From: a virus
Virus record (IMG/VR): IMGVR_UViG_3300037087_000771
Span: 1-54,439 of that record
DNA: 54,439 nt
Direction: 5' to 3' (one strand)
In this document: positions 1,754-28,300 of the stretch, in pieces
Position numbering within the stretch: position 1 is the stretch's first letter
Layout of the letters: every line of letters begins with the position of its first letter
Notes under the pieces: generated by a model
Databases searched by the model: none
Seen by the model: the letters and a program-made list of their open reading frames with translations, nothing else
What the model was told of the DNA's origin: nothing
Translations under genes and position numbers: made by a program

Positions 1754-1970
1754 TTCGATCCCTCCCGTAAACAAGCACTTCTACCAAGGTTACAAGTTTC
1801 GTGATGGTCTTGTTGACCTCCGACATATTGGTGTCGATACAGTCATGGAGTTCCTTGATGTTTTTCTCCTTTTTGATCAGGAGGTAGAACAACCCCGCCA
1901 GCACGACGAAGGCCATGATCAAGAACGGATCTTTCAAGTCTTTGACGATGGCAGTCAGGAGCTCGATCAT
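1740..1970 (-). CDS. Small membrane protein, one helix (candidate holin/antiholin)
   Basis: 76 residues, beginning MIELLTAIVKDLKDPFLIMA. A single hydrophobic helix (about 16-33, LIMAFVVLAGLFYLLI) is followed by KK and a charged helix with heptads (NKTITKLVTLVEVL). The ATG at 1970 overlaps the giant-gene stop by four bases, so it is coupled to that gene. This N-terminal helix plus coiled-coil shape is seen among small phage lysis proteins. Function is inferred from position in a membrane-protein cluster. Confidence 0.7.
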   Translation of the reverse strand: MIELLTAIVKDLKDPFLIMAFVVLAGLFYLLIKKEKNIKELHDCIDTNMSEVNKTITKLVTLVEVLVYGRDRNGNP

Positions 1971-14900: not shown

Positions 14901-17900
14901 ATTCGATTCTGTTTTTTGTTCGATACTATCCGCTTGAGAAACGTGGAGTCCTTCCCGAGGATGTCATTTACCAGCCGGGAGCCAGCTCCGAAGTCGTAGA
15001 TATGAAAGAAAGTAAAGATGACCTGTTCAATTTCGTCTTTCGCCCTCTGGGAGGCCAGGTCCTGCAACCCATGGCCCCACTCATGGGCCATAGTCCCGTC
15101 GCCGTTGTCCCTGGTGAAGTTGATCGTTTTGACAGTGGGGAAGTATGCCGCTGCGGCCCCCTTCGCCTTGTGCCCCAGATTGGCAAATTGTACGGCCAGT
15201 TGTCTCCCCAGGCTCATGCCGATGTTGGGAGCGCCGATGGTTGCAGCCAGGTCCATGAAGGCATCGAACGCAGCCGGGATAACGCGGTTCCGCTCCTCCT
15301 GGTTGATCCAGCCCTCCTCGCCAAACCCGACGCCATTGAAACCGAACGGAGCCTGAAAGTCCTCTGTCTTTTTAAGTTCAACGCCCTTACGGTAATCGGC
15401 AAGGCCGGAACGTACCACTTCCTTGTTCCGCCCGCGCTTGTTGACGTTGATCTCCGACAGCAGGATATCGTTCTCGTCGGCAAGGAGATTCTGCCAGGAA
15501 TCGGTCAGGAAGTTGTAAAGGCCATTCGGTTTATCGACAATATCATGGTTGGCTATAATTCCGACGAGGCTGCGCCTCACTTCCATGTACGGCTCATATC
15601 TCCCGGTTTCATCTCGTAATCCATGGAGCACGGTGTCCTGTAACCGACCGATGATGTTCGTGATGGAGATCTGGCCATCGAAGGCGTCAACGATGGGCTG
15701 CATGGTTCTGCCGTACTCACTCGCCCATTCCTTGAGTTTATCGATAGAACCATCTCGGAAATTCAGCCAATGTTCGATCTTGTCCTCGATGGACTTCCCC
15801 GACATGTAACGCAACCGGTCCCGATTGCTGAGAAGGTGCTCCTTGAACGTCAAGAAATACTTCTGCACCATCTCTTTCGTCCGGGGGACACCCGGGGTCG
15901 CCCCTTCAGGATAATCGACCCCCCATATTTTCCCAGGGACCATCTCGTCGAGGATGATCTTCGCCGCGGACTTTGGTGACTTATCCTTGATCTTCTGGTT
16001 CAACTTCTCCGGGTCATAGACATAGCCGACGTTCTGGAATTCTCCCATCCCGGCTTTCTTCTCTTTGCGCTCCGCCGCCGCAGCCGCCTTTTGCTCTTTC
16101 TCCGCCTTCTCCTGATCGGTCAGCTTTCGGCGGGTCCGCGCTCCCCCCTCCCCTTTCCCCGTGTTCTCGTCGAGGTTGATCACTTCACCCTCTTCCGCCA
16201 TGTTTTCCGGAAGGATATTTCCTTCGTGTCTTACAGACCCCACACCATCCCATGAGTATTTCCAGCCTTCTTCCGGGATAGACACCGTCCCGCCTTCTTC
16301 CCATTCCGGGTGCTCTCTTGCAGCCTTGTTCCATGCGGCGTTTCGAGATTGCTGGTCTGCTTTAACGGGTTCGTCCATAGACGCCCGGTCATATCTGAGA
16401 GAAGATTCCGGCACACGCACTCTGAGGACAACAGGCGCCCCCCCGTGCTCGTCAACAGCCTCTTTTGCATAGTATTGGGCAAGCTCTCTCGTTTTTGCGA
16501 GGTAGGGGTTATTCAGCCCGTTCTTCCTTATGTCATCTAATAGGTTAGAACTCGTCCCGTGATAGGCTTCACGGATTGGGTGATCGATCTCTTTTTTATC
16601 CCTCTTTTCCTGAATGAACTGCTTGAGGTAAGGCCGGATTGCATCGCCGAATTGCGCGATCATCGTCGAGGCGAATTCCCAGAGCCCCTTCCCGACTTCG
16701 ATGAAGTGCGTGAACGCCGCCTCGAAATGGGGCTTCGCTTTCGCGTAGGTATCCTCGTCGATGCCGCCGGGGAGGGACTTCAGCGACGACCCTCCAAACA
16801 GTTCATAAAGACCCTTCAGGGCTTCGCCTGCCCCCAACACCCCCTCCTTGGCCACAGCGGACAGGATGTCATCGAGAGCCTTTGCCGGTTTTGCCGAGGG
16901 GATCTTTCCCGCAGCGCGATCCCTGGCAGCAGCAAATATGTTCTTGACAGCTTCATTTGTCGTCTTCGGCGCAGTTTCTTTCTTTTCCGGCATGTCGAGC
17001 AGTGCGTCGAGGTCTTCATTGGAAATCTCGGAGATCTCTTTCATGATGTCGGCCTTAGCGGCTTCTGGTTTCGTCAATTCTGTCAGTTCGGGATATTTGT
17101 CAAGTATGGCCTGTCGTGCTTTTGGATCATCGCCGGGGGCAGCATCGAGGTCGGATAGAAATCTCTTCGCATCCTCCTGCGAAAATTTCTCAGCCTGCGA
17201 AACCTTGTCCGCATCCTCCAAAAGGGCCGTGCGTTTTTTCTGGTATTCAAACTCAGCTTCTCGCGCATTCTCCGCCCTGAGCCGGTCACTTATTTCGGCC
17301 TGTTCGTTGCTCCTCTTGTCCACGGAGGTTTCCTTTTCCTCCACGGGTGGTTCTTTCCCCTCTGATTTTGAGCCTCTTACTCCGCCAGTTCCCGCCGCCT
17401 TGATATCCCCCGCGGGGGCTTCTCCGTCCTTCACGGGGGTTTCTTTCGTGGCCTTCCCCTCGAACATCTCTTTCGCAAGGCCGGGGTAATACTCTCTGAT
17501 GGTTTTTTCTAACGCCGGCCCTTGCTCTTCCAGCCCTCGGATTTCCTTCTTGATCTCCATTATCCGGGCCGCCAGATCATTGTACGTCGGGGTTCTCCCG
17601 AACCATGAATCCCGCCATGCTTCAGGACCGGCGTCTTCTGCATTCGACGTGGCCTTCGCGTCTTCTCCGAGCTGCTTGAGGGTGATCTCCTTGGCATCGA
17701 CCTTGCGCTGGATCTCCTGATATTTGGCGAGCCGCGCCTTGGTAGCCTCGATCTCTGCCGGGATTCCTTCGTATCTGGCCTTCCACTCATTCCTTTTCGC
17801 CCAGTAATCAGCGACCTCCGCCTCTGCCTCCTTGGTGATCAGATCCGTGGGCTTGCCCGTGCGTTTGTCGGAGTGCTGGGGGAGACGATTCAGCGCCGCC

Positions 17901-20900
17901 GTCACCTTCAGCTTCGAGACGTTCTTCTTGAATTTCTCCAAGTGTTCCACATCGTTCACGATCACAAACTTCCCGTCCATGGGAACGTCGATGATAACGT
18001 GGTTGGGTCCAGCGTCTTCAGTCTTGTTGTTCTCGTAGGCTGTCCGGGCGGCAAGGGCCTCATCGATATGTTCGAGCAGATACTTCTTGACGACCTTGGA
18101 CTTGGCCTCTTCTTCTTTGGTCTTTACCTCCGCCGAGGAAGGGGCTGGTTTCTCTTCCTTCTTCGCTTCCGATGCCTTGGTGGCTTCTTTCGTGGCCTTC
18201 GGGGCTCTCGCGCCGCCGGTTCCGGCTGCCTTGATGTCGGTTTTCTCCTCAGCTTTTGCAGGTGCGTCAGGATAGCTACCCTGGCCCCCGTGTTCTTTTT
18301 CCAGGAGGACTTCCCAGTATGCCTCTGCCGCGTCTATATCCGCGATAAGCGATTGCAACTTCTTGCCAAGTACGGGATTCTTTGCCGTCACGTTCGTGAC
18401 AATCGCCTTCTTTTCTTTCAGGGTGAGCGTGCTATACCCGCGTCCCCCCATACCGCTTCCACCCTTCCCAATCGAATGTTCGAGCCCGGCTTCCCGCTCG
18501 ATTGATGCGAATTCTTCTTCGTATTGGCTGATTAAATTCCTTCCTTCATCGGCGGTTCCCGCGTTCTTCATTTTTTCCGCGTAGGCTTCCGATGTTGGCT
18601 CAGGAGCGATGATCTCGGTGGGGGACAATACGTTGGTCGTCTCGAACGCCGCCAGGTCCTTCAGGGCGGCTATCCCTTTCAGGTCGTCGCCTTTGGTGCG
18701 GCTCCTTATTGCTTCAATCCCTGCCTTGATCGCCTCTTCTCGGGTATTGAATTCCGGACCATCGATAGCCGGGGCATGTCCACTGCCATCGTAGTCGCCA
18801 TACTTTTTCGAGATATGGACACCTATCCGGAATTTCCCATCGGGACCTTCCGCGATGTCGATACTCCCTGTCCGCCCAGATGCCTTCCCAAAAGGAATGG
18901 TTATCTTTTCCGGTTCAGTATAGACGCCATGGTCGTTGATATTGTGCCCTGCATCCCGGTATTTCTTGACATCGTCATCCAGTTCCTGCCTGGCCCTATT
19001 TCGTTTATCCGTAGGTTCATCGACCGCCGCCGGCCCCCTCTTCCCGCCAGTGCCCGCGGCTTTGATGTCAGTGGTGCCTTCGTCGGGCTGAATCATCTCG
19101 AAGATCGGCTTAGTGTCCCCAAAGAGATACTGGTGCATCGCCTCCTTGTCGCCCTGTGAAAGTTTCTTCGCGTTGGTCCCCTCGAACTGGAGAAGGTTAA
19201 ACTCGTCATTTTTTGCCGTCGCCTCGTTGATCGCCTCATCACGCAGCCAGGAGTCGGCGGCGGTGGCATCTTTTATCGCCAGGCGATTCGTCTCCGTGCG
19301 GATTCCGGGGGGCGTAAGGACGCGTCCGGTCAGGGTGGTAAGACCTTCGGACGCGGGGGTTGTCGGAGTTTCCCCTGCAGCGGACTTTTTGGCAGCCTTG
19401 AATTCATCTACAACCTGCTGAAGAATCGGATGATCCCATCCGCGCTCGTTTTGCTGCACATCTGAAAGCACAGACGCCAACTCGTAGATGTCGTCTTGGT
19501 CTTTCTCCGATACCTCAATCCCTTCTTTCTTCAGAAGTTCGACCGCTTTTAATCCAAGTTTCTCCTGTGCAGAAGCAAATGCGGTTTCGGCGTGGTGCAT
19601 GGCAAACCCTGATTCGGATCCCAGGATGTCCATTTCTTCGTCGATCTGTTTCTTTCGCGCCCGCGAAACGGCGTCCTTGGCGCTTTTCAGTTTATTTCTT
19701 TCCTCGATCAGCGCATCCATTTTTGGTTTATTTTTCGTGTCTATATCGTCTTTGACTGAATAGAGGTCATCCCACAAATTGCTGATATTCATAGGGGTAT
19801 AACTTTCGGGGAATTCAAAGTCTTCGGATATTTCTCCCCGCGAAATCTTCCCAATAAGATTGGCTATTTCACCTTCGTCAGCAGCGCCCTGCCCCACCGT
19901 TTCACCATGTTGAACCTCCACGGGGGTTTCTTTTGATCCCACGGAGGTTTTGTCCAATATCCCGAGCCGATACCGGGCGTAGGCACTCACGGTATCTTCC
20001 CCAGTGTATTCCCCAAGGACCGCAGCCTCCCCTCCTTCGGCAAATAACTTTTCAACCTTCGCCCGCACGAACTGCGGGGTTCCGGTCACCTGGGTGTCCC
20101 AGAGGTCGAACCTCTTTTTGTCCTCCGCCTTGACCTCTGCCGTGATGTCCAGGACCTTTCCCGAAGTTTCCCCGGTCACATTCAGCGGTCCTCTCGCGCC
20201 GCCCGTTCCCGCTATCTCCAATTTCTTGTCGATGCCCGCTAGGGCCTCGGGGGTGAGATCATCTTCGGTCTGGATGTTGACATCTCCCTCCGTCAAGATG
20301 TCCGTCGCCGTCAGGTTCTTCCGCTTTGCTGCCGGCTCGTCTCCCAGGAGAATGTCCCTCGCCGCACTCTTGGCTGGCTGCGGGGGCTTTCTGACCACGT
20401 CTCCCTTTGCAACGCCGCCGGTAGATTCGATATTTTCCGGGTCGAACCCGAAGGTAGTGGCCCTGGAGGCAACCGCGTTGGCCAGCCGGTTGAACTCTTT
20501 CCGCTGGGGCTCCGTCGCCTTGCCCGTCTCGATGAGTTTTTGTATCCCGACGGCTTTGTTGATGTCCTCCTGGTAGGTCAAATACTGCTGGTAGAGATCC
20601 GGGCTGATGTTCTTTTCATTGAATTCGTCCCTCAGAGAGACCCATCTTGCCACGTCTTCGCCTGTGGCGTCCTCCGTCTTTACCGCCGCGTCCAGCTTCA
20701 GGTATTCCTTGAACTTGCTCGTCATGTCGAAGTCTATGCCGCGCTTGTCCATCTCAGTCGCGAAGGCGTCCCTTGCCGTGGCCAGGTCCTTATCCTTCGG
20801 CCTCTGGTCCGACAGTTCCTGGGCGTGCTCGTGCATGGCCGGGAGGAATTCATTGGGGATCGAGCCGAACTTGTTTTCAGCGACAACGTCCTTCACGAGC

Positions 20901-22000
20901 TGGGCCGATGCCTTTGTGGCCATCTTGTCTTGGATGTGTCCCCCCACGAGTCCGGCACCGCCCATGCCCATAGTAAGAAGAAGGATGTCGGCAAAGATTT
21001 CCTTATGGGACTGCCGGAGGTCGTCGAAACTGGTCCATGAACGTTTTGTATCACCCGGAGAAAGCCCCATTTCCAGATCAAGATTGTGTTGCCACTGCTG
21101 CGAAACCATTTCCGTGGACTGTTCCGTCGCTTGTTCTGCCAGAAGTTTCCCAGCCGCTGACGCACCGTATTTGTCGAGTGTCTTCCCGATAACCGTCTTC
21201 GCGAGCTGTTTGCCGAATACGTTCTTGGCCGCTCCAAAAAACAACTCGAATCCGACCAGGTTTCCGATTGCCTCGGGGAGCGCCTCGGAAATACCCTGCT
21301 CGACCAGGAGTCCCTCGTTTTTGTCGTAGGCGGTTTTCCATTCTTCCGGGGACAGCACTCGCCCCACCGTCTTCATGCTGGTTTCATTGAGTTTTTGGTA
21401 TAACTGTTGGGCGGACATATCCTTTTGCATCCGGTATCCTGCCGCACCGCCTGCGGCCATCACTGCCGCGCCTCCGACAACTGGTGCCGCTGGACCCACT
21501 GCGAGACCCGCGGCGAGACTGGCCACCATCGACGCCCCCGAAAATCCTGCCTGTTGGGGGGCTCGTGTGATCGTTTGCGTGTCGATATCGGAAGGAAGGC
21601 CGAGCTTCGTAAGTGGTGCAATGACCACCTTATTGTCGGCGTATTTCTTCTGGAAATCCTCTGAATCCTGATTGGCCCTGTCGATGATCCTGGTCAGGAA
21701 AGAGTCCTTGTCGGCCACGGCCTCCCGTGAACCGCCACGGATCATACTCGCGGTTGCACCGGCAATCTGCAAGGGGGTTCTGATCACAGCCTCGCCGACC
21801 GCGCCGACAGTTTCGGCGATCTCCCCCGGCGACGCCAGCTCGTAACGAGCCGGAGCCGTGGATGCTTGTTTTATCTCGACCGGTTTCGAGATAGTGTCGA
21901 AGAAATCCTTCGAGACAGGAGAGGGAATGTCCTTCGTAATGTCATCGTAAAAGGACTTTGACAGCGACAGAGGACTTCTTACGGACGGATTCAGCTCCAT
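1967..22000 (-). CDS. Giant polyvalent (DarB-like) multidomain virion protein, 6,677 aa
   Basis: About 37% of the window. Domains in order (approximate residues): Gly/Ala-rich hydrophobic segment 147-190 and another at 333-353; helical region with AGTGG-type linkers 590-1540; helical module 1755-1800 then ADP-ribosyltransferase-like YHGT 1811-1935; LPD1-type zincin HEWGH 2305; N6-adenine methyltransferase 2680-3050 (DPATGANG, NVPF); SNF2 helicase 3500-4110; second zincin HESVH 4692; second YHGT module 4849; phosphoribosyltransferase VDNVISSGAT 5101; Cys-His-Asp module 5184-5240; RadC/JAMM HNHPSG 5463; helical C-terminus with LPD38-like end 6340-6677. Related proteins in P1 (DarB) and Bcep22-like phages are packaged and injected. 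AAGGAG precedes the ATG. Expected role: protect incoming DNA and remodel host processes; this is inference from the families. Confidence 0.9.
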   Translation of the reverse strand: MELNPSVRSPLSLSKSFYDDITKDIPSPVSKDFFDTISKPVEIKQASTAPARYELASPGEIAETVGAVGEAVIRTPLQIAGATASMIRGGSREAVADKDSFLTRIIDRANQDSEDFQKKYADNKVVIAPLTKLGLPSDIDTQTITRAPQQAGFSGASMVASLAAGLAVGPAAPVVGGAAVMAAGGAAGYRMQKDMSAQQLYQKLNETSMKTVGRVLSPEEWKTAYDKNEGLLVEQGISEALPEAIGNLVGFELFFGAAKNVFGKQLAKTVIGKTLDKYGASAAGKLLAEQATEQSTEMVSQQWQHNLDLEMGLSPGDTKRSWTSFDDLRQSHKEIFADILLLTMGMGGAGLVGGHIQDKMATKASAQLVKDVVAENKFGSIPNEFLPAMHEHAQELSDQRPKDKDLATARDAFATEMDKRGIDFDMTSKFKEYLKLDAAVKTEDATGEDVARWVSLRDEFNEKNISPDLYQQYLTYQEDINKAVGIQKLIETGKATEPQRKEFNRLANAVASRATTFGFDPENIESTGGVAKGDVVRKPPQPAKSAARDILLGDEPAAKRKNLTATDILTEGDVNIQTEDDLTPEALAGIDKKLEIAGTGGARGPLNVTGETSGKVLDITAEVKAEDKKRFDLWDTQVTGTPQFVRAKVEKLFAEGGEAAVLGEYTGEDTVSAYARYRLGILDKTSVGSKETPVEVQHGETVGQGAADEGEIANLIGKISRGEISEDFEFPESYTPMNISNLWDDLYSVKDDIDTKNKPKMDALIEERNKLKSAKDAVSRARKKQIDEEMDILGSESGFAMHHAETAFASAQEKLGLKAVELLKKEGIEVSEKDQDDIYELASVLSDVQQNERGWDHPILQQVVDEFKAAKKSAAGETPTTPASEGLTTLTGRVLTPPGIRTETNRLAIKDATAADSWLRDEAINEATAKNDEFNLLQFEGTNAKKLSQGDKEAMHQYLFGDTKPIFEMIQPDEGTTDIKAAGTGGKRGPAAVDEPTDKRNRARQELDDDVKKYRDAGHNINDHGVYTEPEKITIPFGKASGRTGSIDIAEGPDGKFRIGVHISKKYGDYDGSGHAPAIDGPEFNTREEAIKAGIEAIRSRTKGDDLKGIAALKDLAAFETTNVLSPTEIIAPEPTSEAYAEKMKNAGTADEGRNLISQYEEEFASIEREAGLEHSIGKGGSGMGGRGYSTLTLKEKKAIVTNVTAKNPVLGKKLQSLIADIDAAEAYWEVLLEKEHGGQGSYPDAPAKAEEKTDIKAAGTGGARAPKATKEATKASEAKKEEKPAPSSAEVKTKEEEAKSKVVKKYLLEHIDEALAARTAYENNKTEDAGPNHVIIDVPMDGKFVIVNDVEHLEKFKKNVSKLKVTAALNRLPQHSDKRTGKPTDLITKEAEAEVADYWAKRNEWKARYEGIPAEIEATKARLAKYQEIQRKVDAKEITLKQLGEDAKATSNAEDAGPEAWRDSWFGRTPTYNDLAARIMEIKKEIRGLEEQGPALEKTIREYYPGLAKEMFEGKATKETPVKDGEAPAGDIKAAGTGGVRGSKSEGKEPPVEEKETSVDKRSNEQAEISDRLRAENAREAEFEYQKKRTALLEDADKVSQAEKFSQEDAKRFLSDLDAAPGDDPKARQAILDKYPELTELTKPEAAKADIMKEISEISNEDLDALLDMPEKKETAPKTTNEAVKNIFAAARDRAAGKIPSAKPAKALDDILSAVAKEGVLGAGEALKGLYELFGGSSLKSLPGGIDEDTYAKAKPHFEAAFTHFIEVGKGLWEFASTMIAQFGDAIRPYLKQFIQEKRDKKEIDHPIREAYHGTSSNLLDDIRKNGLNNPYLAKTRELAQYYAKEAVDEHGGAPVVLRVRVPESSLRYDRASMDEPVKADQQSRNAAWNKAAREHPEWEEGGTVSIPEEGWKYSWDGVGSVRHEGNILPENMAEEGEVINLDENTGKGEGGARTRRKLTDQEKAEKEQKAAAAAERKEKKAGMGEFQNVGYVYDPEKLNQKIKDKSPKSAAKIILDEMVPGKIWGVDYPEGATPGVPRTKEMVQKYFLTFKEHLLSNRDRLRYMSGKSIEDKIEHWLNFRDGSIDKLKEWASEYGRTMQPIVDAFDGQISITNIIGRLQDTVLHGLRDETGRYEPYMEVRRSLVGIIANHDIVDKPNGLYNFLTDSWQNLLADENDILLSEINVNKRGRNKEVVRSGLADYRKGVELKKTEDFQAPFGFNGVGFGEEGWINQEERNRVIPAAFDAFMDLAATIGAPNIGMSLGRQLAVQFANLGHKAKGAAAAYFPTVKTINFTRDNGDGTMAHEWGHGLQDLASQRAKDEIEQVIFTFFHIYDFGAGSRLVNDILGKDSTFLKRIVSNKKQNRIAAVKEYVSELFEQAVRKETDYYSTAQQMDADYTARSHEMWARAFEAYIYDTLPGKNNYLVNDFVSAGRVGGKAGVGAKLVYPAGKERETFNETIKYFLDGLEWDENGHPSLKDEYVSIKTANELLLQTKLKELLAEVEDRYNAIWASDPSNDGYYWYRYDATSFGPMMQPDGYAGHDKGYTSEGQNGTGAVAYLTQLHPDDILDYKLSNIQYEGENPTYISKERGGINGSLQEDGAEPLEEVPARPDGSPDEGGDVREGDGAGSADGVGGARGPGKQRGPVGGVEGGSAEGVYPSPAGNYQITDPTLNDPKSVPVRFSLNLAAVKLLNLIESENRLASSGTVSFGEAPPGGWTEADKVPDNQRTIQPSINEKDILAQYSGWGGMSELFAYEPTAAWAGKAELLKAELNDDEVRDAASSSTSAYYTPVPIGTFMWKLAQRLGFTNGVVLDPATGANGLFLGTMPSDLAQGTALQGIEMDGVSARIATLLYGLASIETKPFQDVKKPNNRFDLTITNVPFENFSPTDLKHNKGGYRLHNYFINKMLNLTAPGALSMMITTSNTLDAVGPHLAEFAGKAQLVGAIRLPSGIYSSTQVATDILVFRKNIEGGKFVGVPAEEWTTTGTHESTGLTINNYFLKHPEMVAGKLEKITGRYGNESLRVVGEGDLQSNLERLAASFPDKIVEREAVKEAKSIDDIISAPGTIKEGGAYINDKGEVCEKLDGEEEKLPVATAGEQKKAEIVRLYVRILDQIRTLLRAQKTETDAKVIKEEQVKLKKWYDLFVKTYGPVNAIKNSAMYNEYTDSAWVLALEEHDPDTNKVTKLSDIFTKNITAFAARPDRADTDHDALAMALDEFGYPNLEYMARLRSSDVESVRLGVADKIVENPETGFLETIDEYLSGNVKRKLAVAREMATSNPEYARNVALLEAAQPAEIPQHRITARIGASWIDPAHLADFVRAKMNMRNDLHTVFNFNPVSNEWSMTFKGEEEYRKTKGHRGFSENKAETQRMIAAAKRSIEATTVWGTQRMDFFELMKCALMGKRPQVTFTVDRKQYLDEVATQAAEVKLQDIQSEFGRWLFAEAGRSDEAVKRFNDLINTSVPMNADGSHLTFPGKGMWMLTPKEKEALGVTDALTFYPHQMNATWKYLKNGNLYLGHEVGTGKTVTMGLIAMEAKRLRGKKKVLYVTLNDSTMGQAVQEIKNLYPMANILPVRVSTNEQRKQRSLQKIALNDFDIAIMRQQDLDRIGLSPESERVFIEEELLELREILEEAKKEGARILEQDIQVQIHALEAKLSAPGVHDEAKRKNLFFDDLGIDLMIVDEAHKYKNIPYATRLTRITGLNPTGSPTAKDFFRKTQYLNAQFPKKDGIVLASGTALSNSIAEMYNIQRMLQPQEVKRQGVWSFDRWIANYGDMGSQLEWDGARGQYKVITTNRRIVNAGRLLATAYQNVDSVRAKDTPVKRPIIRGGEPQRVKVQPNQYVEDYKKIILERCAAIEADPKNAEFEGVPDNMLRIISNMSKVAIDQRLDRRYANTEMQQDSKIATASKIMYRRWQEEAKHKGVQLVFADLGIPGKYSDKFKYKTEDETSQLAPEDLAIYNEEMFEHESASAGFNTYEGLKKELVKLGIPENQIAFIHDADHSNKEKKAANLRSLFKKVNAGDIRVLIGSTSKAGTGVNIQGRVSDIHHLDVWWNYSAWEQRNGRGIRAGNLYARDGMPGTYIWNYVTETTVDATRWDKVFAKGKVLNAVLGGDVNLDVIEDISDETMSAKMMAAEASGDPLMSTQATLLQKVQGLRFEQAAHLDVVRRSRMDLAAIPGRIEALEKCIADYQRSRSVMGKVTAVRFIGDDRTLVLEKHGKEISEALEKAVMVDTHSWTENKKAALLVFGSHTETEVTEEVEGKDGEKKEKKVKKYTFVPLPAKADITGKERDPYGRRLLISGSILSSDRNLADIQAKQGKDGIVTTVDIKANVSRTVTEYLSYLNHSEESAKGAIAELKSNAPKLQSVIDTPWAKVDELATNDKELREVEAQMAARGVSVGDPTTGIPIDKYKGVVPVLEDVADKDGWSFHDGIVYPHQDTTIGVRAKTDLSRFLKSGKLKPSIASSYNAPDALNALDGGKPQSPETKPIAYTVIDNVTKFWVPAGATFVTVDPVEWNLLQRIIGKGGAWHYEARGMGERFLIHVTETGERDAFINAKQESYVPQGVKDIDEKAMKGASPPTGQEKYSVGKEGGTGRRTMDMEMIQSIFPGQQVAPDGDNFTVTLKSGAQANIYGVAEITPNTVSLNAGYKKGLAAGQFIAGAFDGLDAQGRGVIRIVRDNANAPWTVSHESVHWLEKLGVISEMDKATLNARIQKEGKWNRDLSHEENRANWLADFAKGPQPNQTVLAQIWQKIQDFINRVVRIRTAGMIGRELQSGKIFEREIQDSSLGGEAYGTGKYDNFGDTAITDFSEDEAWHDIAYREPTKKAIARLNAWLKENKYATIRMYHGTDASIPVMKEGLKPTSARTAKSLQSSHGTVSLSLFPGMAHQFGRLAYAGKEIAIYPVDVLVKNLVPDNDQLRNKRHFGGRTDLGDTLAESIAIGHGAKVRGAVPVDWIRAGEEKPSVTAYDEALSAHAYISPRVKPSLSAKEKTIRDNAYGVKGMDPIVLDSVAKEMAALIPKEARKSAILVPIPGHTGDTAANVALAERIAAITGSRVADVLKRQAGQSQRDARVAGRRTMKPVEFGMVSTETLDGDNVFFVDNVISSGATIRAARDAVGGGKGLVYAKSNPKGEKYAIGTADLELPKRLGDKIKQAFRKDAVASILTDAGPIQSGPLDGGCRVLARALKRIEPTGKIITIEGQLEDGTWQAEHYGFELDGGMIDGDGYAASREAWAKRFAKNESLDRPYRITEGEVPSEDIPQDAPTEKKLASALEKELAPDEVYGEPRAKQGLAVYEHLPVFAITEKGLTRKPRRVLNNNQEVSNGQEVSGTAVVRADNAHAAGQGTDDKREISAPGGRVLPYVPERGTLPTVKSEPIGTWKSSRRKITSLEDAAVIARDNLFRDAQEVFVTIVTDKSGKILAVNLHATGAPNQSQVYAYFAAGQILNIEGASKVWTVHNHPSGQAKLSEADLSVSSNIGDLIADAGIESMPIIAITPSRYSDNTWSSEPLPPREPAIHEIPLLGRKFDQSPEGLESIGSQNEFEEFGRLYMKEGGMVLISAQRQPVAIIAIDDYSKLRPIHTEILREAEKRNAVDFMIYNAEKTLTKADIDNLLSFAKNTQLEFTTVRDRAGDHYEKIKELWGAVRNSKERKVFYSVQKDAIDNASIFPEVNERLKAAKGVKYASLKDRAKDALVTGWEHFTRHFQHLEPETDGAVIDVFRKFQDVPAWAKDETVRQLSGFIGRLSPQGRDVFTMNILLPDMIRDIENGTLGVEDEAELPFGYKNGDQVQQDYDHFRAIAEGSTAIMEALDRRNAFMVSLTDQLIQHKLLKKEVANDPAAYFHHQVLAYMNYKENPNWGMSSQDVRTHRKGWQVGRKGSQLDYNTEYVESEFEIISQALTQIETVKSLKEIERLADIKPQLEAEAKDQNMATFYRKTNEEGGDPLADHPDPLLPFRVKIAMGFQKLAKLFTSENDMGSLPMEFDDVIEHIVDQEEQRRAAKEDEIEFDPVPHPRMFALLNYLINHEGPGSMPAAMIFKAIAARNAFIKQVVGKDWVTYRDMIPEGYVAHKPETGSTFYFTNSIADQALAQVLAGHKNLPDAVRQVLARGRDEEWVVKEGISKTLNEFRPALTDSLPAKMSKNMLTAWKQWILMNPFRVIKYNINNMSGDLDIALAYDPKIITDYFTQAFKDLWAASRGNASETLMDELSGLTKRGVVGSGMTAMDIPELGDVKSVKGLVDFFDGKSKNALSRWWTMSKKLSTLRENILRLAANRYFLDRLGRGEIIYGASRKEEVDAIANREDKAAKLARELIGDYGNISHAGQYIRERMIPFYSWLEINAPRYVRLFRNLKDEGGGIGAMGGVLAWKTTKLAVKASALMGLVMLWNAAFFPDEEDELQEAGREQLHMILGRRTDGSIITLRFQGALSDALSWFGMSNPVEQVKKVASGTKGVGDLAKDAVKAAPLRLFQGFRPEPKLLYETLSGQSFFPDPLHPRPIRDTAEHILRTFSLDRIYNQVSGKPKQGGTWATQMYRDIQSLALNEADPGEQAYYTSRKYIFDWLDKQGKEKPAAMPTNRSNSLYYYKQALKFGDFDAAEKYLKKYQDMGGKLHDVQGSIRRVHPLASLRLADRYKFKASLSPEQQETLSVATAWYKKHYVDTYREQRMRMSQ
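5450..5850 (-). other. Domain: RadC/JAMM metal-binding module of the giant protein
   Basis: TVHNHPSGQAKLSEADLSVS fits the JAMM rule HxH-x7-S-x2-D exactly, preceded by DAAVIARDNLFRDAQEVFVT and a strand ILAVNLHATG, as in RadC proteins. JAMM domains bind zinc and can be peptidases or deubiquitinase-like; in phage polyvalent proteins the substrate is unknown. Confidence 0.85.
6270..6475 (-). other. Domain: possible papain-like Cys-His-Asp module of the giant protein
   Basis: LDGGCRVLARALKRI, then AEHYGFELDGGMIDGDGY. A Cys at the start of a helix, a His beginning a strand, and an Asp after a turn is the order of papain-like thiol enzymes, and small stand-alone phage proteins share it. This is a pattern match only. 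Confidence 0.4.
6560..7470 (-). other. Domains: second ART-like module and phosphoribosyltransferase of the giant protein
   Basis: TIRMYHGTDASIPVMKEGLK starts an ART-like module (near 7452) ending AKVRGAVPVDWIR. It is followed by a type I phosphoribosyltransferase with SAILVPIPGHTGDTAANVAL and the PRPP loop VFFVDNVISSGATIRAA (near 6698). PRTases occur in polyvalent proteins, where nucleotide or NAD-linked chemistry is suspected but unproven. Confidence 0.72.
7650..8150 (-). other. Domain: second zincin of the giant protein
   Basis: ANIYGVAEITPNTVSLNAGY, GVIRIVRDNANAPWTVSHES and then VHWLEKLG carry HESVH (near 7925), an HExxH zinc site. A likely third ligand is Glu in LSHEENRANWLADFA about 40 residues later. 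It is a different subfamily from the HEWGH domain. It precedes the second YHGT module. Confidence 0.7.
9680..11515 (-). other. Domain: SNF2-family helicase of the giant protein
   Basis: Motif Q-like FYPHQMNATWKYL, Walker A HEVGTGKT (near 11436), Walker B DEAH (near 10946), motif III ASGTALSN, motif V STSKAGTGVNIQGR and motif VI EQRNGRGIRAG (near 9815). All helicase motifs look intact, so ATP-driven movement on DNA is expected. Between Walker A and B is a long charged helix (EELLELREILEEAKKEGARI). Confidence 0.88.
12840..13960 (-). other. Domain: N6-adenine methyltransferase of the giant protein
   Basis: SGWGGMSELF, then a conserved SAYYTPVPIGTFMW, SAM-binding motif I LDPATGANGLFLG (near 13556) and a motif IV-type NVPFENF (near 13358). 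The usual catalytic motif is NPPY/F; here it is NVPF. The same order and motifs occur in DarB-like phage and plasmid proteins, where this domain is joined to an SNF2 helicase. Confidence 0.8.
14700..15480 (-). other. Domain: LPD1-type zinc metallopeptidase of the giant protein
   Basis: FGFNGVGFGEEGW, a helix AFDAFMDLAATIG, AVQFANLGHKAKGAAAAYFP, TVKTINFTRDNGDGTMAHEW and then GHGLQDLA. HEWGH (about 15069-15085) is the HExxH zinc motif; a third ligand is likely Glu in SHEMWARAFEAY about 100 residues later. The whole series is the LPD1 signature of polyvalent proteins. Expected to cleave a protein target, possibly a host defence factor or the giant protein itself. Confidence 0.75.
16190..16580 (-). 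other. Domain: first ADP-ribosyltransferase-like module of the giant protein
   Basis: REAYHGTSSNLLDDIRKNGL opens a ~125-residue module with a helix, TRELAQYYAKEAV, a strand APVVLRVRVPESS, and a closing GSVRHEGNILPENM. The 'YHGT...I...GL' opening is typical of NAD-binding ART-fold domains in toxins and polyvalent proteins. It is preceded by AKAKPHFEAAFTHFIEVGKG...RPYLKQFIQE, a helical segment common before such domains. Catalytic Glu placement cannot be fixed by eye. Confidence 0.6.
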
Positions 22001-22022: not shown

Positions 22023-23054
22023 TTAGAAACTTCCACCAACGGTAAGGCCCCTGGCTCGCCGTAATGCCCGGTTCTTTTCTTCCTCTTCCTTGCGCTGCTC
22101 AACGATTTTCGCGGCTTGCATCCCCCCTCTTTTCCATGCTTCCCCCAAGATACCGCCCGGTGTTCCGCCGAAAGCCGTCTTCCCGCCACTGTCAAGAGGG
22201 CCTGCAGCGGCAGTAAGGCTCTTTTCCGGAAGAACTGCTGGAGATGGTACGGCAGGTTGCACGATGGACCGTGAAGCGTCCATGACCGGTGGGACTGCGG
22301 GCGGCTGAACAACAGGAATAGGCGTTCTCGCTTCAGGGGCCGGAGTGCCGGCGGGCGACAATCCCGCCGCCGGAGTAGCTGCGTTCCCTGGGTTCAGGAG
22401 CGCCAGGGCGGCCTGCCTGGTGTCGGCGGGAAGGGCATTCAAATAGTTACGGGCGCTGTCAGGTGTCCCGGCTTTTTCGTGTTCTCTGAGAACCCCGACA
22501 GCGAATTCCGCTTCGCTGGCCACGTTCCTGGCTTGGGGCGTTGCGGCTGGCCTTGCGAGTCCGGTTTGCTCCATGAGTGACCTTGCCGCGTTCCCGACCT
22601 CTGATGTCGGCTTTTTCGTCAGGGTTTTCCCTTCAGCATCCGTCTGACTGACTTCCTGTGCGTGCCCCAGGATGGTGCCGAGGGTTGTCAGGTAAGACTT
22701 CTGCTTCTCGGTGCGGTCAGTTTGATCTGCCCTGCGATTCAGCCCTTCCTCGACGATCTTCTGTTTATCCCTCTCATTGAGCCCTTCAAGGCGCTTGACA
22801 TCGAGAGTCCCGTTGTTCCTGAGCGTCTGAAGATCGTAATCGCCCTTGATCGCAGTGGTCAGTTTTTCCTTCTCCCACGTGAGTTTGTCCTTGTCTCCCG
22901 TGATCTGGGCTTCGAGTTTCCGATACTCCAGATCCACTTTGCGCTCCTCTGTCTTTTCCCGGAGCGACATCTCCCGTCCGGCCAGCTCCATCGAGAAGGC
23001 CATCTTTTGCTCAAACAGCGGGATCAACCTCCCCAAAAGATCATCGAAATTCAT
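22023..23054 (-). CDS. Putative internal virion (ejection) protein, 343 aa
   Basis: Residues 1-~110 form a charged helix (MNFDDLLGRLIPLFEQKMAF, RKVDLEYRKLEAQITGDKDK). The middle has SLMEQTGLARPAATPQ and AVGVLREHEKAGTPDSARNY, and residues ~220-290 are a Pro/Ala-rich linker (PIPVVQPPAVPPVMDASRSI). The end is basic and helical (AAKIVEQRKEEEEKNRALRR). A helix, flexible linker and small size, immediately upstream of a giant multidomain protein, are typical of podophage proteins ejected with the DNA. AAGGAGG precedes the start. Function is inferred from context. Confidence 0.65.
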   Translation of the reverse strand: MNFDDLLGRLIPLFEQKMAFSMELAGREMSLREKTEERKVDLEYRKLEAQITGDKDKLTWEKEKLTTAIKGDYDLQTLRNNGTLDVKRLEGLNERDKQKIVEEGLNRRADQTDRTEKQKSYLTTLGTILGHAQEVSQTDAEGKTLTKKPTSEVGNAARSLMEQTGLARPAATPQARNVASEAEFAVGVLREHEKAGTPDSARNYLNALPADTRQAALALLNPGNAATPAAGLSPAGTPAPEARTPIPVVQPPAVPPVMDASRSIVQPAVPSPAVLPEKSLTAAAGPLDSGGKTAFGGTPGGILGEAWKRGGMQAAKIVEQRKEEEEKNRALRRARGLTVGGSF

Positions 23055-24475
23055 GGCAACGCCTCCTTAGCTTTGTAAAATGACATCGGCAATATCATCA
23101 TGTTTGAATTGACGATATATGCCTCGTTGGAAGGCAGTTCCTTCGCCGCTTTCTCGCTGGCTATCAGGTCTACCATCTCTTTCCATTTGAAGTTTCCCCG
23201 CGTTTTATCCAGGAACCTGTCAAGATCTCCGATCCGCAAGATCGCTACGCGGTCCCCTACAACATAGCCGTAAAAATCAGAGGCTGCGATGCAGACCTCA
23301 ACTCCTCGGACGACGCACTTGTAAACCAAGCCGACTTTCCCTTCCAGGGGTGCCAGAATCTCGCTGATGATCCCGCTCGTATAATAGTTGGTCTCGAACC
23401 AGTTCCCCGCGTAAAGGAAGGGAGAGGTCTCCTGGAACCACCACACATGGGTCGGCCATGGCTTCGCGAGCAATCCGATGAACTCGCCCGGCAGCGGCCA
23501 TTTTGCATCCCGGCGCAGGTAGTATCGAAAAGAGGAGAATGGCTGGATCTTGTCGTACCCCGTAAACTCCGCTGCAGGATATTCAGCATCTCGGTTCATG
23601 ATTACATACCCGTGCTCTACCAGGTGGACCCCCGGACACATATCTTCCATGTCCGTCATAGGGGACATCAGCCCCTGGAGGACATCTATCCGGACACACT
23701 TCCAGCCCACGGGATTTGAGATCACCACGGCTTCATCTGCCGAGATAGGGACCTTTTCTTTCTCCCCAGGGTAAGCATCGATCATGTCTCCCATGCTCTC
23801 GGAGAACACGGATAGGGTCTCCATGACCCCCAGTGGCCCTATGGGAATCGACAGGAGCCCGCAATATAACTGCCCCAGACTTGTCTCCGGCTTCTTCGTG
23901 ACGCCTTCCTCTGACGAAGCCTTCGGCCCCGTGGATGGGAACTCCGTGTTGCGGTTGAGCATCCACATCTCGAAGCGCATCTCGCGGATGACATGGGGCA
24001 CACTGTCTGTTTCCCAAACCTTTGTAAACGTGGTCCAATCCATGTAGGTACTGAGGTCTGAGTATTTCTGGATGCTCTTCAACGGTTTGATGTTGTCAAG
24101 CCGCTCCAGGTATTTTGCAAGGAACCCGAGGATCTTCGCCGCGTTCTCCTGATAGTTATCCCCAGTGAAGGGGAGGATCGACGCGCAGATTGCCAGATAC
24201 CAGATGTCAGACGCAGCCGGCAGGGATGTCCCCACATCGTACCCATGTTCAAGCCCTTTTCTGGTGTTATCCCCGACATCTATTTTCAGCCACCGATTGA
24301 AGTCAAAATTCGGGATGATGAACTCCAGGTATCCCCGGAGACGTTTCTGCATCCCTTCAGTGACAGATCCGACCGAGGAACCGAGCTGGTTCAAACGAAT
24401 TGTCCGACTGACGGGGAACATCGCCTCGTATTTCGTCAGTAGGTCACTAAGGTCTGATAGATCCTTCTTGCTCAT
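23051..24475 (-). CDS. Hypothetical virion protein, 474 aa
   Basis: Unrecognised. Ordinary composition, no signal peptide or membrane helix. Notable stretches are YLEFIIPNFDFNRWLKIDVG, LPAASDIWYLAICASILPFT, GQLYCGLLSIPIGPLGVMET, and a Trp/aromatic segment AKPWPTHVWWFQETSPFLYA followed by GKVGLVYKCVVRGVEVCIAA. It looks like a folded globular domain, unlike its helical-repeat neighbours. Four-base overlaps on both sides (ATGA) couple it to them. Position just before the two ejection-type proteins suggests a tail or internal core component. Confidence 0.7.
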   Translation of the reverse strand: MSKKDLSDLSDLLTKYEAMFPVSRTIRLNQLGSSVGSVTEGMQKRLRGYLEFIIPNFDFNRWLKIDVGDNTRKGLEHGYDVGTSLPAASDIWYLAICASILPFTGDNYQENAAKILGFLAKYLERLDNIKPLKSIQKYSDLSTYMDWTTFTKVWETDSVPHVIREMRFEMWMLNRNTEFPSTGPKASSEEGVTKKPETSLGQLYCGLLSIPIGPLGVMETLSVFSESMGDMIDAYPGEKEKVPISADEAVVISNPVGWKCVRIDVLQGLMSPMTDMEDMCPGVHLVEHGYVIMNRDAEYPAAEFTGYDKIQPFSSFRYYLRRDAKWPLPGEFIGLLAKPWPTHVWWFQETSPFLYAGNWFETNYYTSGIISEILAPLEGKVGLVYKCVVRGVEVCIAASDFYGYVVGDRVAILRIGDLDRFLDKTRGNFKWKEMVDLIASEKAAKELPSNEAYIVNSNMMILPMSFYKAKEALP

Positions 24476-26085
24476 TTTGCCACCGGAGCCGCTCCAATCG
24501 CATGCGTCAATGTATTCACGACATCCGCTTCTGACATAGCCTTTGCCATATCTTCCGCTGCCTTGTACTCGCTCTTTCTTGCAGCCACACGGGCGTCATG
24601 AAGCGCCGCTCTGTTATCCTGATTCTCCTTGATCATTTCCCCTTCTGCGGTTTGAGCAGAGATCTCCAGGGCCTTGAGGGAGTCGGATACCGTTCCCTTT
24701 GACGTGAAAGCAGTTGCACGGTTGTTGTATTCAGAAACCTGGTGCTCGCTTCTCGCAGCCTGGGACTCAAGATCGGCTTCGCCCTCTTTTGTAATAGCCT
24801 CCCCAAGTTTTGGGATCGTCACCGTAATTTCGGTTTCCGCGTTCGTTACTCGTTGATCAAGGAGGGGTTCCTTTTCCTTCAGAAGATCCGTCTCTTCCTG
24901 GTACGCGAGGTTCTCGGCCTTGGCAACAGCCAGCTCCGACTCGATAAGGCCCTCCATTGCTTTCTGTGTCTTCAGGCGGACGGTATCGGCTTCGGTCTGC
25001 GAGACCCGAACATCGACCTCCTGTGTCTCAAGCTGAATGCGCCCGATCGCGGCCTCCACCTCTTGCTTTTTGATGGGAACTTCCGCAATATCGAAATCCA
25101 GGCGTTCTGCGTCGGCTTCGAGTATGGTCTTCTTCACAGAGATCTCTTTGATATCGAAGTCAATACGAGCGATGTCGGATTCGATTGTCCTCCTTTTCAC
25201 CACAACCTCGGAAGTATCCAGGTTGATCTGGGCTTTGTCTGCATTCAGACCAGCCTTCTTTACATCCACTTCCGCAGTCTCCAACTCAAGACGACCAATG
25301 TCTGCATCCAACCCCACCACGCGGACAGCAACTTCCGCGGTATCGAATTCAATGCGCTTGATGTCTGCCCCGAGCAGAGACTTCTTCGCCTCTACCTCTG
25401 CGGCGTCGAGATTTATCCTGCCGATATCGGCATTCAGATCGGCAACCCTTACCGAAACAGAGGCTAATCGGAAGGCGGCATCGGCAACCTGGGCCTGGAT
25501 CTCCAGCGCCCGGATACCGGTCTCAATGACATCGAGTTCGGCCTTCTGCGCGATCAACTGCTGCCGGGTGATTTCCGCCTCAACCTGGGCGCTTTCAAGC
25601 ACCTGCTCTTCTATTTTGGCTCCCAGTTCTACGATAACGGTGTTAGCCTTGGCTTGGGCTACGGTGAGTTCTGTGATCTTCGTCGCGAGCGCCTGCCGGT
25701 CGGATTCAAGTGCCTCAACCTTTGCATCAACCTCAGACGCCTTCTGGACAACCTTCCTCGTCTTGTTCAGCAGAGCCGCATCCTTCGCGGCAAGGGCCTG
25801 ATCTTCGATATACCGCTTCGCCGTGACATCGATGACCGAACGCTGCTCGTCAGCGGTCAACTCGGCCATAGCCTGGTCGTAGGAAAGAACCATCTGCGCG
25901 AGGGTTTCGTAGGTGATCTCTTTCAGGTAGTTGTACCCGTGGAGGTACGCCCCGGAATAGATACCGAACACGACAGCCCTGTCAGCAACGTGCACGGCCA
26001 GCATCCCAGGGATTTGATACTGGAAGACAGGCCATATCGACCGCCCCCGAACTAATCCCCTGTCCAAAACAGCCTGTCCCGTCAT
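24472..26085 (-). CDS. Coiled-coil virion protein with eight different 21-residue repeats
   Basis: 537 residues. A short mixed N-terminal part (SIWPVFQYQIPGMLAVHVAD, GIYSGAYLHGYNYLKEITYE) is followed by heptad-rich helix and then, at residues ~212-379, eight contiguous 21-residue units such as AKKSLLGADIKRIEFDTAEV and VKKTILEADAERLDFDIAEV (core: VKK-x-x-L-x-AD-I-x-R-I-x-x-D-x-AEV). A further helical part follows (AARSEHQVSEYNNRATAFTS). AAAGGAG precedes the start. The unit length equals that of the upstream neighbour, but the sequence is unrelated. Likely a rod-like tail or internal virion protein; the stop overlaps the next start. Confidence 0.72.
   Translation of the reverse strand: MTGQAVLDRGLVRGRSIWPVFQYQIPGMLAVHVADRAVVFGIYSGAYLHGYNYLKEITYETLAQMVLSYDQAMAELTADEQRSVIDVTAKRYIEDQALAAKDAALLNKTRKVVQKASEVDAKVEALESDRQALATKITELTVAQAKANTVIVELGAKIEEQVLESAQVEAEITRQQLIAQKAELDVIETGIRALEIQAQVADAAFRLASVSVRVADLNADIGRINLDAAEVEAKKSLLGADIKRIEFDTAEVAVRVVGLDADIGRLELETAEVDVKKAGLNADKAQINLDTSEVVVKRRTIESDIARIDFDIKEISVKKTILEADAERLDFDIAEVPIKKQEVEAAIGRIQLETQEVDVRVSQTEADTVRLKTQKAMEGLIESELAVAKAENLAYQEETDLLKEKEPLLDQRVTNAETEITVTIPKLGEAITKEGEADLESQAARSEHQVSEYNNRATAFTSKGTVSDSLKALEISAQTAEGEMIKENQDNRAALHDARVAARKSEYKAAEDMAKAMSEADVVNTLTHAIGAAPVAK
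24949..25452 (-). repeat. Tandem 63-base coding repeat, 8 copies (ADIxRI..AEV units)
   Basis: Eight in-frame 21-codon units, from VRVADLNADIGRINLDAAEV to VRVSQTEADTVRLKTQKAME (the last copy is degenerate). Alternate units begin VRV or VKK/AKK, hinting at an underlying 42-residue super-repeat in the first half. DNA copies are diverged, so amino-acid pattern and not recent duplication is what is conserved. Confidence 0.85.
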
Positions 26086-26097
26086 CGTTCTTCTCCT

Positions 26098-27747
26098 TTA
26101 CGCAAGCAAATGGATCAACTTCTCGGTCAACTTCACAGTCTTCGTGTTGTAGATCATGATATTGTTGTGCTCAGTGAGAGCAGTGGCAAGTCGATTTACT
26201 TCGCTGACTTGTCCCGCGAGATCCGCTCTCTCTGCAGCATACCTGGCAGCTTCGACCTTGGCGAGATGAGACTCCTTAATGGCCACTTCATTTCCACCTA
26301 TTTTGTTGATGTACTCAATCTCTTTTGTTGACTCAGTCTCCATCGCCGTCCTGATTAGCCCGAGTTGGAGCTGAAGGGCTGTGGCAACCGTCAGTCGTGC
26401 CGTTGCCCTTTGAAGTTCCAGCTCCGCTCGGTCTCTTTCGATGGTGATCTTTTTCCCTTCCAGGGTGATCTCCTTTCCCATCAGCACCAGATCCTCGGTA
26501 AGTCGTAAAATCTTCTTCTCGGACATCGTTACCTTTTCCTGGGCAAGCGCTATGTGGTTTGCGAGTTGCGCCATCATCTCGTCGGCGAGTTCTTGGCTGG
26601 CCAGGGCCTTCCGGGTCATCGGTTCGAGGAGCTTCAGTAATTCTTTGGTGAGCAGTTCACTCTCGGCAGCCTTGCGAGACATAGGGTCCAGCAGTTTGTT
26701 CAGCTCCGTCGTCAGCTCCTTGGTCTTATTGGCCTTATCGGTCATCGGCTGCAACAGCGTGGCCTGTTCCGTCGTGAACTCGTCGGTCTTGTCGGCCTTG
26801 TTGGTCATGGGCTCGATCAGTGTGCCCAACTCCGTAGTCAGAGCTTCCGTGGCGGCTACTTTATTCAGCATGGGTTGCAGCAGTTCGTGTTGCCTGCCGG
26901 TCAGTGTGGTTATCGCCGCCGCCTTACCGGTCATCGGCTGCAGCAAGTCAACCATCCTATCGGCCAGGGCCAGTGTCTTATTGGCCTTCTCGATCGTGGG
27001 GGCCAGAAGTTCTGCTTGCGCTGCAGTGTTGGCTCCCGTCGTCGCCGCCTTCACTTCCATCGCAGGAAGGACCTCGGCAGTCGTTCTGTCAGCAACCTCC
27101 TTTTCATAGTTTGCCTTCTCTTCCCGTGCGGGCATGATAACCGTTGCTTCCGCATCGAGAACAGCGCTTTGTGCCGCCAGGGCGGCCATGATATAGGGGA
27201 TCACATCCAACTTCCGCCGAGCCGCCGCCAGCTTTGCCGCAGCCAACTGCTCTTCCAGGGGAAGAGGGAGAAGCTCAACCTCTTCCTTCTGCCGTTTGAT
27301 ATCTTCGATCTGGACCTCGATAGCGACCTTGGACAGGAGTACCGCTATTTCCCGGAACTCCTGATCGATCATCAGACCGTCAATTGCTTCGCCCCTCAGC
27401 GACCGGATCAGCTCCTTGTCGGCGAATTCAGTCTGCAGATCCGAGAAGAGCTGCATCTTTTCGAGTTCCCAGGCCATGACGGCCTGCTTCAGGGAAATGT
27501 CGTTCTCCAATCCCAGAGCCTTCAGTTCGCGGTCGATCGCCTCGCCCATGATCTTCTGGTTGTACTCGGTCAACTTAATCTTGCTGTCGATCTCGACATC
27601 GGTGAGCGCCTCAACCGCAAAACCCGGCATCGCTGAGAAGTTCCTGGATGCCACGGCAGAGAGAATCGCTGCAGTGCTCTTTTTGAATTCCCGGAAGACC
27701 TCGCTCTTTCCCTTGTACCAAAGGCTATTCTCGGATGTGGTCCCCAT
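26098..27747 (-). CDS. Coiled-coil virion protein with seven 21-residue repeats
   Basis: 549 residues, nearly all helical and Ala/Glu/Lys/Leu-rich. Residues ~247-393 are seven consecutive 21-residue units of the form LL-x-PM-x-x-KA-x-x-t-x-x-L-t-x-e (for example LLQPMTDKANKTKELTTELN; LLEPMTRKALASQELADEMM). Three heptads equal 21 residues, so a regular coiled coil interrupted by a Pro at position 4 of each unit is likely. Flanking regions are also heptad-like (ELELQRATARLTVATALQLQ). A GAGGT site precedes the start. Its downstream neighbour has a different 21-residue repeat. A tail rod, tape-measure-like or internal virion protein are possible; no family recognised. Confidence 0.72.
   Translation of the reverse strand: MGTTSENSLWYKGKSEVFREFKKSTAAILSAVASRNFSAMPGFAVEALTDVEIDSKIKLTEYNQKIMGEAIDRELKALGLENDISLKQAVMAWELEKMQLFSDLQTEFADKELIRSLRGEAIDGLMIDQEFREIAVLLSKVAIEVQIEDIKRQKEEVELLPLPLEEQLAAAKLAAARRKLDVIPYIMAALAAQSAVLDAEATVIMPAREEKANYEKEVADRTTAEVLPAMEVKAATTGANTAAQAELLAPTIEKANKTLALADRMVDLLQPMTGKAAAITTLTGRQHELLQPMLNKVAATEALTTELGTLIEPMTNKADKTDEFTTEQATLLQPMTDKANKTKELTTELNKLLDPMSRKAAESELLTKELLKLLEPMTRKALASQELADEMMAQLANHIALAQEKVTMSEKKILRLTEDLVLMGKEITLEGKKITIERDRAELELQRATARLTVATALQLQLGLIRTAMETESTKEIEYINKIGGNEVAIKESHLAKVEAARYAAERADLAGQVSEVNRLATALTEHNNIMIYNTKTVKLTEKLIHLLA
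26569..27009 (-). repeat. Tandem 63-base coding repeat, 7 copies (LLxPM units)
   Basis: Seven in-frame 21-codon units without gaps, from LLAPTIEKANKTLALADRMV to LLEPMTRKALASQELADEMM. Protein conservation is strong at the Leu-Leu-x-Pro-Met core and the Lys at position 8, while DNA copies have diverged. This implies old duplications held by structural selection. Confidence 0.85.
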
Positions 27748-27750: not shown

Positions 27751-28293
27751 TTACCTCGTCAATACTATCGGGAACAGCTCTGTCTGCCCCAGCTCGTCAA
27801 ACTCTGCCACCAGGAATGTCCATTTCGTCCCCATTAGACTCCTGGGGAAAAACGCCTTGGAACGCAGGATCGGGATGCTACTTCCGACGCTGCCAACTTC
27901 CGCCCGGACTATGGGCGCGGCTCCCGTGACATCAAATACACCTGCCCGAAAACGCTTCCGGTTGTTCGTCCCGAATATGGATGGCGATAGAACGACGCCG
28001 TCATGGATGTCCGCCCCGGCATCCGTTGTCCCTTCTAAAATGTAGATCCCTTCTTCCCGTGCTGCATAAGCTATTCCTTCATCAACAGCGTAAGAGTTGA
28101 ACGAAAACCCACTGTAGACGGACGGCTCGAATGTCTTCCCGTTGAACGCCCATGCCTCCCATACGTCGCCGCTTACCGCGCCCAGGTCCTCCAGGAGAAG
28201 AGCTTCGAGGATCAGGGACCCAACAAGTCCCTGCTGGATCTCCTCGTCAGTGAGGATTATGGAAGAGACCAGGGTTTCATTGATTTCTAACAT
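27751..28293 (-). CDS. Acidic N-terminus virion protein, 180 aa
   Basis: The first ~45 residues (LEINETLVSSIILTDEEIQQ, LILEALLLEDLGAVSG) echo the acidic repeat style of the preceding gene. The rest is a compact, ordinary-composition domain (GFSFNSYAVDEGIAYAAREE, then RAEVGSVGSSIPILRSKAFF and TKWTFLVAEFDELGQTELFP). AGGTGAAGC precedes the start and only three bases separate its stop from the next start. Tail-region structural protein by context; no family recognised. Confidence 0.65.
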   Translation of the reverse strand: MLEINETLVSSIILTDEEIQQGLVGSLILEALLLEDLGAVSGDVWEAWAFNGKTFEPSVYSGFSFNSYAVDEGIAYAAREEGIYILEGTTDAGADIHDGVVLSPSIFGTNNRKRFRAGVFDVTGAAPIVRAEVGSVGSSIPILRSKAFFPRSLMGTKWTFLVAEFDELGQTELFPIVLTR

Positions 28294-28300
28294 GCTTCAC

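Follow-up and report, generated by a model that had tools for sequence, protein, structure and literature searches.

Locked lengths of two adjacent repeat proteins across about 20 related viruses suggest one rod or tube of two components

The gene cluster

The window, i.e. the whole stretch of 54,439 nucleotides that was analysed (54.4-kb IMG/VR record IMGVR_UViG_3300037087_000771), carries nearly all of its genes on the minus strand, where terminase, portal, major head protein, neck and tail genes are followed by a pair of genes for putative rod proteins, here termed A and B, and then by C, D and a giant gene. Gene A (26098..27747, minus strand) encodes 549 aa and has homologues in 20 or more loci; gene B (24472..26085, minus strand; 537 aa) lies downstream of A at a spacing of 12 nt, with both genes in one frame. 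Gene C (23051..24475, minus strand; 474 aa), which sits downstream of B in the relatives throughout, served us as a length control. Gene D (22023..23054, minus strand) encodes 343 aa with a charged helical part and a Pro/Ala-rich part, and immediately precedes the giant gene (1967..22000, minus strand), whose 6677-aa product is homologous to the DarB-like protein of podophage BcepIL02 (E 1.8e-142). This giant open reading frame is uninterrupted, makes up 37% of the window and is about 2000 aa longer than its BcepIL02 counterpart. The order A-B-C-D-giant, on a single strand and with tiny gaps, is kept in the relatives; judged from this layout in the sequence, A and B have the position expected of ejection proteins, beside a giant injected protein and in one putative transcription unit with it.

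Upstream, A adjoins a gene for a 180-aa virion-structural-like protein (27751..28293, minus strand), relatives of which occupy the equivalent place in Methanosarcina virus MetMV and in Pseudomonas phage F116. Further upstream, a tail-fibre-like gene (37692-38870, minus strand) contains collagen-like 9-nt repeats (Gly-x-y) at 38143-38555 of the window. The virus appears to be of the podovirus type: its portal is ∼39% identical to the portals of Bcep22-like podophages, portal and major head protein are common to Bcep22-like and F116-like short-tailed phages, a head-closure Hc3 protein is present, and the neck genes match those of F116 and MetMV. No tail-tube protein was recognised in the window by these searches, which a very divergent one would escape.

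Repeats and conserved motifs

Self-comparison delineated tandem arrays in both proteins. In A, seven units of the LLxPM type cover residues 247-393 (26569..27009, minus strand); they start at residues 247, 268, 289, 310, 331, 352 and 373, are each exactly 21 aa long and carry, in this order, the motifs LLAPT, LLQPM, LLQPM, LIEPM, LLQPM, LLDPM and LLEPM. In B, eight units of the type VKKxxLxADIxRI...AEV occupy residues 211 to about 378 in register (24952..25455, minus strand), again of 21 aa each and free of indels. Over all lags, lag 21 came out top in both proteins (mean BLOSUM62 score +0.23 for A and +0.25 for B, against −0.20 and −0.23 for the best lag across 100 shuffles), while lags 42, 63, 84 and 7 also ranked high, the last of these as expected for heptads. 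The seven and eight units described in the earlier note are thus real and far above chance. The equal period was likewise correctly seen, but it is less telling than the note had assumed: 21 residues amount to three heptads, so that on its own a common period says little about pairing of A with B, and we rejected it as proof thereof. The equality of the 21-residue period may in itself still be a coincidence of coiled-coil arithmetic between heptad-built proteins.

The proline at a fixed position of every LLxPM unit, previously singled out as unusual for a coiled coil, belongs to a longer ladder in A that places a Pro about every 21 residues between residues 163 and 376 (26620..27261, minus strand), with a regularity that none of 100,000 random Pro placements reached. 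The proline is thus not peculiar to the seven units, and the ladder recurs throughout the family: rungs lie near +70, +91, +112, +133 and +154 from a conserved Trp of A, the +91 rung being present in all 20 A members examined. In the A protein of the window the ladder runs on to +283 at a spacing of 21-22, and given its presence across the family, the LLxPM array is best described as an extension of an old pattern, ancestral in origin and longer here. Equal spacing would line up the Pro kinks along the same side of a heptad helix and could yield a regularly curved or supercoiled rod.

Both proteins end in a conserved motif found by alignment, of the type xITxxLxHLI in A (26101..26175, minus strand) and, weakly similar to it, xIxxTLTHxI in B (24490..24564, minus strand). 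The final 25 residues of A and B can be aligned with each other (hhalign E 4.5e-4, probability 33%). The two proteins, which had been taken to be unrelated, are mostly so, with the exception of this common motif in their C-terminal 25 residues.

Relatives of A and B

In the phage collection, MetMV (MK170447) was the only match, and the A and B genes are adjacent there. Scans of viral and genome contigs added further loci, some of them in metagenome-assembled genomes (MAGs), two labelled Syntrophaceae and others labelled delta-proteobacterium or Methanoperedens. B came after A wherever the contig was long enough, in the order A-B in every complete locus, and downstream of the pair came C, usually D, and then the giant gene. 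Between clades of A/B viruses, pairwise identity is near 25%. At locus L015, two genes separate A from B; the intervening segment (7590-9555 of L015) holds two or three additional ORFs (105, 451 and 93 aa) and leaves both A and B undisrupted, and it is possibly a mobile element.

Length coupling

Lengths were measured between internal anchors, namely from the Trp of AWELEK to the His of the C-terminal HLI in A and from the Arg of KRY to the His of LTHxI in B, which makes them independent of start-codon choice. The 20 pairs obtained in this way comprised short ones (A/B, in aa: 304/290, 306/290, 304/291, 304/289 in several cases, 305/290 and 305/289), longer ones (319/303, 326/311, 374/359 twice, 442/418, 439/418 and 453/437 three times) and the pair 388/356 of L038, which has an assembly gap in B. 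Ten members are near-constant (A 304-306, B 289-291) despite belonging to very divergent lineages. Among the 19 pairs with intact frames and without an assembly gap, A exceeded B by 13-16 residues in 17, which puts these pairs no more than some 3 residues away from the family offset; the difference was 21 in L015 and 24 in L011, a deviation of 6-9 residues from the usual 15. L010 and L040 were left out because of frame breaks, in A (5983-7145 of L010) and in B (6542-7703 of L040), respectively, and L038 was kept out of the main correlation on account of a 109-base N run in B; all sequences were used uncorrected. On the broken side, the anchor distance in L010 and L040 is 16-20 residues short, so that these two loci are either misassembled or genuinely depart from the length rule.

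The raw correlation between the lengths of A and B was r 0.9995. Independent contrasts on a tree built from the N-terminal parts only, which are free of repeats, gave r 0.9994 with a slope of 1.03 (n = 18), and r = 0.995 when the gapped L038 was included. The length of the downstream gene C, in contrast, did not follow that of A (r = 0.04), and D showed no obvious length trend with A/B. The tree requires at least five independent length shifts, or six once L038 is added to the six length classes (5-7 overall); their number is small, yet each of them is matched in A and B. Many of the shifts in A (15, 22, 70, 84 and 149 residues relative to 304) come near a multiple of 7, as would be required of a coiled coil, though their number does not suffice for a statistical test. 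The earlier note had named independent variation of copy number in relatives as an observation that would speak against its reading, and we looked for such variation and found instead that the lengths co-vary with a slope of about 1.

These contrasts bear on the most trivial explanation, according to which A and B are merely heptad-built proteins whose lengths match because the gene pair descends from common ancestors and is transferred together. The two genes are indeed adjacent and co-inherited, and 21 is three heptads. However, contrasts strip off shared ancestry, and co-inheritance does not make two proteins change equally on the same branches, as they do here with r 0.999 over at least five shifts. 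For the lengths, this explanation is refuted, and as an account of the whole we consider it scarcely credible.

The closest comparison is with L008, the nearest shorter relative of the window virus, at 62% identity to the A protein of the window in the best tblastn segment and 51-54% over whole A and B alignments. The A protein of L008 has two LxPxM-like units versus eight in the window clade (the seven described above and a degenerate one before them), and its B protein has two units versus eight, so that each protein is six units shorter, by 127 (A) and 126 (B) aa. Other lineages have arrived at matched lengths by other routes. Compared with its kin, the A protein of L038 contains two direct duplications of exactly 42 aa, a gain of 84 aa, and in its B protein there is a related duplication, which extends into the N gap; L011 and L015 display dispersed insertions. 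Most relatives have no obvious tandem arrays, yet the A/B length match is kept.

In A, best-fit insertion points are about 174-199 residues away from the C-terminal anchor in all lineages apart from L011, whose fit is ambiguous; in B, the corresponding distance is 98-174 residues. Insertion at the same axial level, tried as proof of lateral packing, was not general across lineages. As insertions in A and B do not share one axial level in all lineages, matched total length is established and local side-by-side register is not; of the original proposal that A and B lie packed next to one another or follow a common ruler, the predicted match in copy number stands, and side-by-side packing in local register is a possibility.

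Predicted structure and similarity searches

AlphaFold2 monomer models, informed by 18-19 homologues, predict helix nearly throughout A and B, albeit at low confidence (pLDDT 66 and pTM 0.21 for A, 68 and 0.34 for B). Hydrophobic residues recur with a period of about 3.5 in A, and the heptad signal is clear in A and weak in B. A long heptad/hendecad helix of the kind found in the DNA pilot protein H of phiX174 is accordingly seen in both low-confidence models, more clearly for A than for B. In B, the model forms a long helical hairpin (low confidence) with its turn inside the repeats, a region in which the alignment draws on just three close homologues; we give this hairpin no weight.

Searches of PHROGs returned no match for A or B of either the window or MetMV, and Foldseek against BFVD gave none below 1e-3 for A and matched mixed coiled coils for B. 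Below-cutoff Pfam matches (ATP-synt_DE, Flagellin_C) were taken as noise from helix composition; PDB sequence matches for B (the PARP1 helical domain and others, E 0.03 and worse) and VIA-align matches (chemoreceptors, SMC arms, dynein stalks; Z up to 14.5) were set aside as generic long helices. Likewise, no sequence relation of A or B to the ejection proteins of T7, P22 or DEV emerged from PHROGs, Pfam or PDB sequences. Podovirus ejection proteins are known to diverge beyond recognition.

The Bcep22-like podophages (BcepIL02, Skulduggery, Parlo) share with the window the portal (about 39% identity), the major head protein and the giant DarB-like protein, but profile searches of BcepIL02 and Skulduggery found no A/B relatives (best E 0.03); the best matches of F116, Skulduggery and BcepIL02 to A/B-family profiles were dismissed as high-bias, short or weak. 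In F116-like phages, the place between a relative of the 180-aa protein and the giant gene is taken by one structural protein of 630 aa (Epa33 gp59, phrog_10969), part of which, an R-N-F-x-x-P-P-G stretch, can be aligned with the N-terminal domain of A and is followed by a long helical part. Unlike A/B, gp59 is a single gene and not a pair, and its similarity to A is weak (hhalign E 0.0013, probability 18%); in the PHROGs search, none of the 19 A proteins matched the phrog_10969 family profile.

Discussion

The lengths of A and B are locked across about 20 related viruses, which suggests one rod or tube made of two components. That the two proteins physically co-assemble we regard as quite probable. 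The more specific reading, in which they are parts of one long helical assembly of a podovirus, a hetero-oligomeric rod or helical tube with coincident ends, has in our view an even chance; both the end-to-end matching and the presence of A and B in the virion are deduced rather than observed. In such an assembly, the conserved N-terminal domains would meet at one end and the shared short C-terminal motifs at the other, and a length change in A would be selected together with an equal change in B, through the gain or loss of heptad multiples (21-aa units in the window virus). The AlphaFold2 hairpin of B speaks against a single rod, as it would fold the rod back on itself, although it is of low confidence.

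Instead of touching each other, A and B might each be fitted to a third object of variable length, such as a tail tube, the cell envelope or the capsid interior. What the data establish is matched total length and not insertion at one level, and tandem arrays, 42-aa duplications and dispersed insertions all reach the same match, as such an outside fit would allow. On the other hand, the A-B offset is kept to about one residue in most pairs, which is tighter than a loose outside fit needs, the shared C-terminal motif and the adjacency of the genes favour a common assembly, and no other neighbouring gene follows (C does not, and D has no obvious trend). We therefore deem a third object unlikely. 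Still less plausible is a two-protein tape measure for a tail tube: A and B are helical, constrained in length and encoded in a late structural position, and their length classes resemble tape-measure scaling, but the head and neck genes of the window are of podovirus type and no tail-tube protein was recognised there by searches that a very divergent one could escape.

As to the role of a co-assembled A/B rod or tube, be it conduit, external stalk or internal core, we lean towards the ejection apparatus, for which the case is about evenly balanced and derives from gene order, since C, D and the gene of the giant DarB-like protein follow the pair directly. Adjacency to a giant protein speaks for an ejection role, as in phage DEV (PMC10925440). 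A straight helix of 304-453 residues would measure ∼45-67 nm (1.5 Å per residue), hard to accommodate inside a capsid for about 60 kb and easy outside, which speaks for a location outside the capsid or for assembly only on ejection. The same dimension would suit an external adsorption fibre or tail stalk, in which a hetero coiled-coil shaft of A and B links tail and adhesin and is length-matched for that reason, and A/B do directly follow fibre-like genes (27751-38870 of the window). Yet a beta-rich or fast-varying tip is lacking from A and B alike, whose C-termini are short conserved helices, and the pair lies on the giant-protein side of the cluster; an external stalk thus seems improbable to us. 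As part of an ejection apparatus, the A/B rod or tube might extend the short tail through the host envelope, with a length fitted to the envelope crossed.

Known ejection devices offer partial parallels. The DNA pilot protein H of phiX174 forms a decameric helical tube 170 Å long, whose assembly only on ejection has been proposed (PMC7354561). Like A/B, it is a long helix of heptads and hendecads, and it builds an envelope-crossing rod or tube, for which length matters; it differs in being one protein with a helix of about 120 residues from an ssDNA microvirus, in having no sequence relation, and in being a published tube, whereas A/B are known from sequences and low-confidence monomer models. 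In DEV and T7-type phages, the genes for ejection proteins adjoin that of a giant injected protein (PMC10925440, PMC8954989). T7 gp14/15/16 (PMC8954989) and DEV gp73/gp72 with the giant vRNAP gp71 (PMC10925440) resemble A/B in being helical and encoded in an operon beside a giant; there, two different proteins form one channel. Unlike A/B, their components are there described as stacked or taped together and show no sequence match to A/B, and in the open-access portions of this literature we did not find matched length variation described.

In phage machines, length control has mostly been described where one protein sets the length, as in tape measures and pilot tubes. In the present family, a pair of distinct proteins holds an equal reach in very divergent viruses while the absolute length varies by half. 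A parallel for the stepwise change may be found in the chemoreceptors, whose rods, packed in arrays, have one length class and are altered by heptad multiples (heptad indels). These are mutually homologous membrane receptors, unlike A/B, and the likeness is one of analogy only. It is conceivable, if somewhat short of an even chance, that A and B constitute a two-component molecular ruler, with the podovirus family tuning both repeat numbers and its reach evolving in discrete heptad steps, which possibly fit host envelopes of different depth. This raises the question of whether rod length tracks the depth of the host envelope. As an in-silico signature of a hetero-oligomeric rod, the matched lengths are strong and were obtained from lengths alone, and co-variation of coil length between neighbouring genes could provide a cheap screen for obligate partner proteins in viral dark matter.

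Two observations concern the comparison viruses. MetMV was assigned to Methanosarcina by spacer, abundance and tetramer evidence (PMC7164591). Its relatives in our set (L037-L040) stem from the MAGs filed as Syntrophaceae, delta-proteobacterium and Methanoperedens, and the MetMV group has neck genes in common with F116; given these labels and shared genes, the archaeal host of MetMV merits a recheck. In the F116 record (L074, 43834-45724), a p57-type structural protein is split by a frame change that is absent from Epa33 and others and is probably a sequencing error in this old record.
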